Shown here in pieces: positions 14,810 to 18,325 of a DNA stretch of 64,000 bases. Position numbers and translations under genes: made by a program. Each line of letters opens with the position of its first letter. Position 1 is the stretch's first letter. Source of the DNA: Actinomycetota bacterium (lineage in GTDB: Bacteria > Actinomycetota > Coriobacteriia > Anaerosomatales > Anaerosomataceae); contig RCMX01000001.1 in the NCBI GenBank assembly GCA_004348925.1, positions 569,640 to 633,639 of the forward strand. Reading direction: 5' to 3'. A model generated the notes under the pieces. That model saw only the letters and a program-made list of their open reading frames with translations. It was not told where the DNA came from and did not search any database.

Positions 14810-15775
14810 ATGCGCAACACCCGTATCGTCGAGATGCTCGAAGTGACAGAGGCCGCAGCCCTTTCAGCCGCTCGTTGGATGGGCAAGGGCGACAAGATGG
14901 CGGCAGACCACGCGGCCGTGGAAGCCATGCGAGGTGCCTTCGACATCCTGGACATATCCGGTGAGATCGTCATCGGCGAGGGGGAGCGCGACGAGGCTCC
15001 GATGCTGTACATCGGTGAGAAGGTGGGCGCCGGTGGCGAGGAGATCGATATCGCCGTCGACCCGCTCGAGGGCACGAACCTCACCGCGTATGGCCAGCCG
15101 AACTCGTTGGCCGTCCTGGCGTTCGGTCCCAAAGGCACGCTGCTCAACGCTCCAGACACCTACATGTGGAAGATCGCCGCAGGTCCGTCTGCGAACGGCG
15201 CCGTGCATATCGACGCCAGCCCTACCGAGAACGTCAAGAACGTCGCCAAGGCGCTCAAACGACCTGTCGAGGACATCGTCGTGTGCATCCTCGAGCGCGA
15301 TCGGCACAACGAGCTGATCGCTGAGGTCCGCGCGAGCGGGGCCCGCATCCGGCTCATCTCGGATGGCGACGTGTTCGGTGCGGTCGCGACCGCGATAGAA
15401 GGCACCGGTATCCACCTCTACATGGGTGCCGGCGGCGCCCCCGAGGGTGTGCTCGCGGCAACGGCCATGAAGTGCATCGGCGGAACGTTCATGGGTCGCT
15501 TCCAGTTCCGCAGCGAAGAGGAGCGCGCTCGCGCGGTAGAGATGTCCAAGTGCGACATCGACGGCGTCCTGACCATGGATTGCCTGGTCAACACCGATGA
15601 GGCCGCGTTCATCGCGACCGGCGTGACCGATGGCGAGATGCTTCGCGGGGTCAAGTACTTCGGCCAGGGCGCGCGGACGCATTCGATCGCAATGGACAAC
15701 AAGACCGGCACGGTTCGGTTCATCGAGACCGTCTACCGCACCGGCGCCGAGAAGTTCTGGGTGAGAATGGAGTAG
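14810..15775 (+). CDS. glpX: class II fructose-1,6-bisphosphatase
   Basis: It hydrolyses fructose 1,6-bisphosphate to fructose 6-phosphate, the committed step of gluconeogenesis. The 321-residue product matches GlpX in length. It has the metal and substrate motifs GEGERDEAPMLYIG, DPLEGTNLTAYG, SDGDVFGAV and GAGGAPEGVLAATAMKC. GGGGAGG precedes the ATG. It ends three bases from the convergent FmdB-type gene. No other gluconeogenic gene is nearby. Confidence 0.96.
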   Translation: MRNTRIVEMLEVTEAAALSAARWMGKGDKMAADHAAVEAMRGAFDILDISGEIVIGEGERDEAPMLYIGEKVGAGGEEIDIAVDPLEGTNLTAYGQPNSLAVLAFGPKGTLLNAPDTYMWKIAAGPSANGAVHIDASPTENVKNVAKALKRPVEDIVVCILERDRHNELIAEVRASGARIRLISDGDVFGAVATAIEGTGIHLYMGAGGAPEGVLAATAMKCIGGTFMGRFQFRSEEERARAVEMSKCDIDGVLTMDCLVNTDEAAFIATGVTDGEMLRGVKYFGQGARTHSIAMDNKTGTVRFIETVYRTGAEKFWVRME

Positions 15776-16072: not shown

Positions 16073-16157
16073 TGAGTACCTCCGGATGAAGTGGTCGCTG
16101 GTTGCGAAGGTGCAGGATACACCCCGTGTCGCTGGTCAGGCAAGGCATCGATGTTGC

Positions 16158-16163
16158 TATACT
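16158..16163 (+). promoter_or_regulatory. -10 box suggesting a leaderless PASTA-protein transcript
   Basis: TATACT ends seven bases before the ATG at 16171, and no Shine-Dalgarno-like sequence lies between. TGGTCA (16133-16138) is a possible but distant -35. The arrangement fits a leaderless actinobacterial mRNA. Confidence 0.5.
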
Positions 16164-16170
16164 CATCCCC

Positions 16171-17250
16171 ATGGAACAGCTGATCACCGAGCGGCCCAGG
16201 CGCCGCCCTCTCATACCGCGATGGCTCATCATCACCGCCGTCGCCATCATCGTAGTGATCGTCGGCGCCGTCGCAGGCGTTGTCTTCACGATGCGCAACG
16301 GCCTTATCGCGATTCCCGCAGTGGTCGGCAGGACGACCATGGAGGCGAAGGCCGTTCTCGACAGCGCCGGCCTCGTCGCCGTTGAGGGCGGCGAGTGGTT
16401 CTCGGTCACCGTGCCGATGGGCTCGATCATCTCGCAGGAGCCGAGCGCGGGTGCGCTCGCGCGCAGAGGCGACACCGTGAGCATCATCGTATCCGCCGGT
16501 TCCGAGACCTTCATCATGCCCGATGTCGTTGGCACCGCGTCTGCCGATGCGCGCCTTCGCCTCGAAACGCTCGGACTCCGGGTCACGCTCGAGACGGTGG
16601 AGGCGTCGGCCACCGAAGGCACCGTCACCGAGACGTACCCGACGGCAGGCCAGGAAGTCCGCAACGGCTCCACCGTGCGCGTTCGAGTCGCGGGCCGATC
16701 GGTAGCGTCATCGATCCTGTTGCCGTACAGTATGGACGGGGTCACGGTGGTTGTCGATCCCGCGCCTGTTGCGGCCGGGAGCGACACGACCATGGAAGTG
16801 ACACGCCGTTTGCGGTCGCTGCTCGAGGCGTCGGGAGCTATGGTCAAAGTGACGCGGAGCATCGGTTCGAGCTCGACCGCCACCGCCGACCGCGCGGCCA
16901 TCGTCTCCGAGACTACCGCTACGGTCGTGGTGGCACTCGACCTTGCTTCATCAGGTGCCGAGGGAATCCAGGTCACCTACGTCACCTCGAAGGATGCATC
17001 AGCGACTGCGACGACCGCCAGGCTGGTCGCCAGCATGACCGAAGCGCTGACGTCGCCCGGTCAGGTGGTTCGTGCCCCCGCCAACGCGACCAGCGCCATT
17101 CTCTCGGCCTCCACGGCTCCAGGAGCGAGGATCATTCTCGGTAACGCTCGCGGTAAGGGTGATGCGTCGCTGTTCGCTGATCCCGCATGGGCGGACACCG
17201 TCGCGCGCGCCCTCTACCGCGCCCTCGGCGCAACATTCGGACGCGTCTGA
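16171..17250 (+). CDS. PASTA-repeat membrane protein with degenerate amidase_3-like domain
   Basis: The 359-residue protein has a short basic cytoplasmic tail and one membrane segment (18-40). Two PASTA repeats (about 46-109 and 113-175; each has a PxVVG motif and an SxGxxxxRGDTV-like end) bind peptidoglycan stem peptides in other proteins. The C-terminal part (184-355) follows the layout of N-acetylmuramoyl-L-alanine amidase (Amidase_3): VTVVVDPAPV at 192-200, RRLRSLLEASGAMVKVTR at 212-229, VALDL at 254-258. The zinc histidines of the normal DPGHGG and SIHxN motifs, and the catalytic Glu, are missing, so it is probably a non-catalytic binder. ATG 16171 was chosen from the -10 box. It sits just upstream of an M23 peptidase gene. 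Confidence 0.8.
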   Translation: MEQLITERPRRRPLIPRWLIITAVAIIVVIVGAVAGVVFTMRNGLIAIPAVVGRTTMEAKAVLDSAGLVAVEGGEWFSVTVPMGSIISQEPSAGALARRGDTVSIIVSAGSETFIMPDVVGTASADARLRLETLGLRVTLETVEASATEGTVTETYPTAGQEVRNGSTVRVRVAGRSVASSILLPYSMDGVTVVVDPAPVAAGSDTTMEVTRRLRSLLEASGAMVKVTRSIGSSSTATADRAAIVSETTATVVVALDLASSGAEGIQVTYVTSKDASATATTARLVASMTEALTSPGQVVRAPANATSAILSASTAPGARIILGNARGKGDASLFADPAWADTVARALYRALGATFGRV

Positions 17251-17290: not shown

Positions 17291-18325
17291 ATGAGCATGA
17301 GAAGCCGCCGCATATTCAGATGGTGCATCATCGCCGCTACGCTCGTGGCGATGGTTCTTCCCGCTGCATCCGCATTCGCTGCGAAATCTGAAGTCACGAA
17401 ACTCAAGGAGCAGCTCGCCGCACTCCGCAAGGAGTCACAGCGCGCCGGTGACGCTTACTCGAAGGCGTACTGGAAGCTCGACGCCACGAACGCCAAACTC
17501 ACCGCCACCAACGCCAATCTCTCCAAGACCAAAGAGAAGCTCGCCAAGGCTTCCGCACGCCTGAGCAATCACGCCGCCGAGATGTACCGCCAGGGTGAGA
17601 TAGACTACCTGGCTCTCCTTCTGACGAGCGACACCCTCGACGACATGCTCGTCCGACTCGAGTATGTGAGCCGCATCGGCCAGCAAGACGCATCGGTCGT
17701 GGCCGAAGTGAAGGCCCTCCAGGCCGACCTGAACGCACAGAAGGCCGAGATCGAGTCCGTCAAGGCGGATCAGTCGAAGGAGGCAAAGGCCCTCAAAGCG
17801 AAGGCCGCTGCACTCGACAAGAAGCTCAAGTCCGTCGAGTCGGAGTACGCGGCCGTGCAGAAGAAGCTGGCTGCCGCACTCGCAAAGCAGAATCCCGGAC
17901 GTGCGACCTCGAGCACCCGCTACCCTGCAGGCCCCAACGGCATGGTGTTCCCCGTTCAGGGTTCCTATTACTACGCCAACACCTGGGGTGCTGCTCGCTC
18001 TGGAGGACGCACCCACAAAGGCACCGACATCATGGCTCGCACCGGAACGCCATGCGTTGCCGTGCTCAGCGGCACCGTTCGGGCCAAGTCGAACTCCCTC
18101 GGCGGGAAGACCATCTGGCTGACCGCCGACAACGGTTGGCAGTTCTACTACGCTCACCTGAACGGGTACGTCCGCTCGTCAGGACGGGTGGCCGCAGGCG
18201 AACTCATCGGCTACGTCGGCTCTACCGGCAACGCGTCGGCGAGCGCGCCGCACCTCCACTTCGAGATCCATCCGGGCGGGGGAGCGGCGGTCAATCCGTA
18301 CTCCTACCTCAGGGCCATGGAGTAG
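17291..18325 (+). CDS. secreted M23-family peptidoglycan endopeptidase with coiled coil
   Basis: The 344-residue protein has a signal peptide (RRR, hydrophobic core, cleavage after SAFA near 30). A long Ala/Lys-rich coiled coil (about 33-215) resembles PcsB, NlpD and EnvC-type proteins. The C-terminal LytM domain keeps its zinc ligands: H242 and D246 in THKGTD, and H323 in HLHFEI (H321 is catalytic). It should therefore cleave peptide cross-bridges outside the membrane. GGGAGAT lies 9-15 bases before the ATG. It begins 40 bases after the PASTA/pseudo-amidase gene, which suggests a common role in wall remodelling or division. Confidence 0.92.
   Translation: MSMRSRRIFRWCIIAATLVAMVLPAASAFAAKSEVTKLKEQLAALRKESQRAGDAYSKAYWKLDATNAKLTATNANLSKTKEKLAKASARLSNHAAEMYRQGEIDYLALLLTSDTLDDMLVRLEYVSRIGQQDASVVAEVKALQADLNAQKAEIESVKADQSKEAKALKAKAAALDKKLKSVESEYAAVQKKLAAALAKQNPGRATSSTRYPAGPNGMVFPVQGSYYYANTWGAARSGGRTHKGTDIMARTGTPCVAVLSGTVRAKSNSLGGKTIWLTADNGWQFYYAHLNGYVRSSGRVAAGELIGYVGSTGNASASAPHLHFEIHPGGGAAVNPYSYLRAME

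Follow-up and report, generated by a model that had tools for sequence, protein, structure and literature searches.

The open reading frame at positions 16171-17250 of the window, the 64,000-nucleotide stretch of DNA analysed here, encodes a 359 aa protein that, judged from its sequence, is an Amidase_3 homologue whose cutting residues disappeared in the distant past and which selection still retains. We base this on homology, fold, loss of the catalytic residues, a single old origin, selection and gene order. Its role is probably to sense the cell wall or organise it, not to cut it, and we give about even odds (roughly 50%) to a reading in which this single-pass membrane protein is a non-enzymatic wall receptor or scaffold, holding PASTA repeats and a dead Amidase_3 domain outside the membrane and binding an envelope protein through a helix surface.

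The chain runs from one transmembrane (TM) helix through two PASTA repeats to an Amidase_3 domain at the C-terminus (full-length AF2 model, pLDDT 87.6, pTM 0.61), and everything described in this paragraph lies on the forward strand. Residues 1-16 (16171-16218) form a short tail, with positive charges that suggest a cytoplasmic location, and alignment of orthologue N-termini revealed in it a conserved ERPxRRPLIPRW motif that runs into the TM helix (residues 17-43, 16219-16299), a hydrophobic stretch that AF2 predicts as helical and that matches the membrane anchor claimed in the first-pass annotation of this DNA. That annotation had also placed two PASTA repeats ahead of the C-terminal domain, and both scored above the Pfam cut-off (PF03793 by hmmscan, 92.2 bits against 23.2), repeat 1 covering residues 45-110 (16303-16500), with AF2 secondary structure in support, and repeat 2 residues 113-175 (16507-16695; Pfam match at residues 115-174). 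The dead domain follows at residues 190-356 (16738-17238), and orthologue alignment places within it helix a1, also seen in the AF2 domain model and bearing a conserved VxRRLxxLLEA (16786-16830), and the family signature FxDPxWADxVARAxYRxxG on the C-terminal helix (17173-17229). Upstream of the gene, an extended -10-like element, TTGCTATACT (16154-16163), ends 7 bases before the ATG; elements of this type recur at nearly the same distance in most orthologues of family f1, across many genera, and are recognisable in other families, making it the gene's probable own promoter, with a leaderless mRNA.

The C-terminal domain matched PF01520 at residues 205-352 (hmmscan, 40.4 bits, E 4.2e-10, curated cut-off 27), and this match is far above chance because 41 of 41 orthologue domains, each scanned singly, match the family too (E <= 0.001). 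Modelled by AF2 with 33 orthologues, the domain reached pLDDT 92.6 and pTM 0.90, and a Foldseek search of the PDB returned Rv3717 as the best match (E 4e-11, TM 0.82), with the top 33 matches being amidases or amidase-fold endolysins. By VIA-align the model superposed on 4rn7 at Z 22.9 (rmsd 2.3, 166 residues), the next fold families following from Z 12.5 down (poly-gamma-glutamate hydrolases at Z 12.5), while a sequence profile run against PDB sequences at E<=0.001 recovered amidases only (CwlD at 1.9e-10). The structural match to Amidase_3 that the annotation had expected from its reading of the strand order was therefore found. Searching the window genome with PF01520 yielded four matches, namely the window protein, two full-profile domains with intact ligands (L001, L002) and one partial domain (L003:1486-2433, reverse strand), an odd match that starts at profile position 57, with SVHND present and no DPGHGG part seen.

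Alignment with intact amidases places P199 (16765-16767) at the first zinc His (DPGH having become D196-P-A-P199), G203 (16777-16779) at the zinc Glu, D257 (16939-16941) at the second zinc His of SIHxN (SIH having become A255-L-D257) and I322 (17134-17136) at the catalytic Glu. The zinc histidines and catalytic Glu are thus missing as first described, with a small correction of register, and the loss holds across the lineage, with no orthologue (0/58) carrying a His at either zinc-histidine column and none of the 58 keeping the full catalytic set. Other columns are less uniform: the catalytic column, variable across the dead clade, is Glu in a single orthologue (L020, which lacks the other catalytic residues), the zinc-Glu column is mixed (3 Glu among the 58), and in two orthologues (L043, L045) a His stands one position ahead of the expected column in the first loop, with the other catalytic residues absent. 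For comparison, all 22 intact amidase domains of the tree set have H at the second zinc position, where the dead clade has D/S/T and others, and all 22 have E at the catalytic position. The end motif 'DPAWADTVARALYRAL', picked out by the annotation as amidase-like, turned out to be a hallmark of the dead-amidase family, with D, W, D, R and Y nearly invariant, and its W, R and Y are atypical of intact amidases.

Placed in a tree with 27 other Amidase_3 domains, the dead domains form one clade (support 100/99), and since they all fall on one side of this branch, one old loss is the simplest reading of a tree whose root position is not fixed. The CwlM-like proteins found in other Actinomycetota, of which five are partly degenerate, sit in a clade of their own across the branch; L141, L143 and L150-L152 lack the second His and keep the catalytic Glu. 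The dead amidase occurs in 62 of the 69 sampled members of the order, window genome included, and in three families outside it (f17, f20, f21), matches in other families of the class being weak; the named relatives with the gene are uncultured Coriobacteriia and Anaerosomatales. One genome (G049) encodes a shortened relative (L168:11489-12187, reverse strand) with one PASTA repeat and ~94 residues of the dead domain, in which strand 1, helix a1 and the C-terminal helix are kept and the middle is lost. In another (G089), a second, truncated dead-domain copy (L205:2635-3330, forward strand) lies right behind the first, with an identical last part, and may be an assembly duplication.

Comparing the dead domain of the window genome (G000) with that of G004 gave dN 0.068 and dN/dS about 0.04, a rough value given the near-saturated synonymous sites (pS 0.67), and we conclude from it that the domain is under purifying selection and not decaying. 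The former catalytic positions have no special conservation (entropy percentiles 0.28, 0.74, 0.44 and 0.84 within the domain), for which reason a repurposed active site was set aside as the leading idea. Nearly invariant are R213, L217, A220, D331, D342, R346 and Y349, and conservation is concentrated on helix a1 and the C-terminal helix, both of which survive in the shortened relative. Spaced at i, i+4, i+7 and i+11, residues D342, R346, Y349 and G353 lie on one stripe of the C-terminal helix; this stripe may be exposed, and it is possible that the role of the conserved residues on the helices is limited to folding.

Gene order at the locus is priA-def-fmt-rsmB-glpX-(FmdB-like zinc ribbon, minus strand)-dead amidase-M23-thiT-thiN, with thiN named from homologues, and rsmB and usually glpX (here a fructose-1,6-bisphosphatase gene at 14810-15775 on the forward strand, a long-standing upstream neighbour) flank the dead amidase outside the order as well. 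The M23 gene (17291-18325, forward strand) begins 40 bases behind the dead-amidase stop codon, the spacing given in the annotation, and its product, an endopeptidase with a PcsB-type coiled coil (Pfam M23 82.3 bits, CC_PcsB 30.1 bits), looks active from its HKGTD and HLH motifs. Across the 72 genomes with a dead amidase, an M23 orthologue lies directly downstream in 43 (gaps of 11-99 bases) and on another contig in 11, and none was detected at E 1e-40 in 18, the last two groups including some incomplete assemblies. Loci that pass directly from the dead amidase to thiT, skipping M23, are L034/L072, L058 (f5), L035/L074 (f15), L049 (f17) and L203/L204 (f21); the reverse case is G011, where glpX, FmdB, M23 and ThiT are kept and the dead amidase is absent. 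Other M23 proteins were present in all ten of the genomes checked, so a partner of this kind acting in trans is possible. Linkage to FtsEX was considered and rejected: ftsX (C3:128639) does not lie near the window, and by eye an S41-peptidase-like ORF, not M23, seems to come after it.

These neighbourhoods bear directly on the idea with which the analysis began, namely that the protein serves specifically to activate or position the M23 endopeptidase encoded next to it. Its appeal lies in the intact-motif, coiled-coil M23 on the same strand at so many loci and in the AmiB-EnvC precedent, in which a LytM/M23 fold binds an Amidase_3 fold directly (PDB 8C0J; PMC11627006). The proposal is partly supported: across most of the order the M23 protein can plausibly be taken as the partner. 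The support does not extend to a general mechanism, given the thiT-only loci of f5, f15, f17 and f21, the lack of any M23 orthologue at E 1e-40 in f7, f17, f20 and G104, and the M23 gene of G011 with no dead amidase beside it; the M23 protein cannot be the sole reason for retention, and we regard a dedicated activator as rather unlikely. A heterodimer with an active Amidase_3 paralogue was rejected as a general function: it is unlikely because the dead amidase is the only PF01520 match found in G041 (98% complete).

A different tie, to PASTA-kinase signalling, would make the protein a kinase-less relative of PASTA-kinase receptors that reads wall state for PknB or a hydrolase, which we doubt, or an accessory receptor whose dead-amidase-capped stalk competes or pairs with the PknB ectodomain, which we likewise hold to be unlikely. 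The dead amidase sits between rsmB and thiN, the slot that holds the PASTA kinase prkC in Firmicutes. The NCBIfam PASTA-kinase model is colinear with residues 18-176 over the TM helix and PASTA repeats, and the next-best matches are long ORFs (500-650 aa) from the same genomes whose PASTA stalks resemble those of kinases, that of the window genome being PknB, encoded elsewhere in a cluster with FHA proteins, PP2C and an FtsW/PBP ORF. This match, however, reaches 94 bits, far under the model cut-off of 450, and falls mainly in PASTA repeats, which are common to many wall proteins; hmmscan found no Pkinase match in the window protein, no conserved Ser/Thr was seen in its short cytoplasmic tail, and its gene is unlinked to pknB. 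Eight genomes of other Coriobacteriia orders had no PASTA kinase directly in the rsmB slot, and one (G048) has a weak PknB-model match ~10 kb downstream of rsmB. At L126:8748-11495 (reverse strand), a single 915 aa ORF combines FtsW/RodA and PBP transpeptidase domains and adjoins the PASTA kinase and PP2C. Were the dead domain instead a peptidoglycan-binding module only, anchoring the protein or measuring the wall with no protein partner, the intact AF2 fold and the wall ligands of both PASTA and the amidase fold in known relatives would be accounted for, but variable catalytic positions beside two near-invariant helices fit a protein surface or core over a sugar or peptide pocket, and we find this distinctly improbable. 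That the gene is a decaying remnant without function can be argued from the reduced version in G049 and its absence in G011, and is scarcely credible against the low dN/dS, the retention in those 62 order members, the conserved promoter-like element and the invariant residues.

Under the receptor or scaffold reading that we prefer, the single TM helix would place the PASTA stalk and dead domain outside the membrane, where PASTA, and perhaps also the dead domain, would contact peptidoglycan, as PASTA, the fold and the precedents of EnvC, DipM and CwlM suggest. Conserved residues of helix a1 and the C-terminal helix would form a surface that binds an envelope protein, a role that the coiled-coil M23 endopeptidase of the next gene may fill across most of the order; such a dead amidase with a live M23 would mirror the EnvC-AmiB case, in which a dead M23 activates a live Amidase_3. 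Any regulation by the window protein would likewise follow these three precedents by analogy. Several observations speak against this reading: the neighbours of longest standing (rsmB, thiT/thiN) have housekeeping rather than wall functions, whole families lack an adjacent M23 gene, and G011 has the M23 gene without the dead amidase. Known examples of dead wall hydrolases turned regulators are isolated ones (EnvC, DipM, CwlM), to which a dead Amidase_3 displayed at the cell surface on a PASTA stalk would add an independent one, with one old loss kept through an order and beyond, in a group of anaerobic Coriobacteriia. A clear test set is at hand in the genomes that have or lack the M23 neighbour, the naturally minimal version and the invariant residues off the old active site. 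The Pfam match above cut-off also carries an annotation warning, as it would label this gene an N-acetylmuramoyl-L-alanine amidase.

Among open-licence papers we found nothing relevant on PASTA combined with a dead amidase, and the TM-PASTA-dead Amidase_3 architecture appears undescribed in that literature. With the Amidase_3 zinc amidases (Rv3717/Ami1, CwlV, CwlD, LytH) the window protein shares fold and sequence family, but it lacks both zinc His, the zinc Glu and the catalytic Glu, and no orthologue keeps the set. Closer in its degenerate zinc site is CwlM of mycobacteria and other Actinomycetota, an Amidase_3 homologue without zinc ligands that activates MurA (PMC4946905). CwlM, however, is cytoplasmic, lacking a TM or secretion signal, and has two N-terminal peptidoglycan-binding domains and a phosphorylated tail; the window protein has neither such domains nor such a tail and carries a TM helix and PASTA repeats instead; the PTG/TGT motif of the CwlM tail is absent, the sequence ending ...RALGATFGRV right behind the last helix, and membership of the CwlM group was ruled out by architecture and by the tree (other clade). 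The Stk1/PrkC/PknB PASTA kinases have the TM helix and PASTA stalk in common with the window protein, which has no kinase domain and carries a dead amidase at its outer end. Within the same genome, L002 likewise runs from a hydrophobic N-terminal helix through PASTA to Amidase_3, differing in its one PASTA repeat, intact zinc site and other clade. EnvC and DipM, whose dead M23 domains regulate hydrolases (PMC11627006), resemble the window locus in having a dead wall-hydrolase domain in an envelope protein and an M23/Amidase_3 pair, but the roles would be swapped: at this locus it is the amidase that is dead, the M23 encoded next door retains its motifs, and no M23 domain occurs in the window protein.
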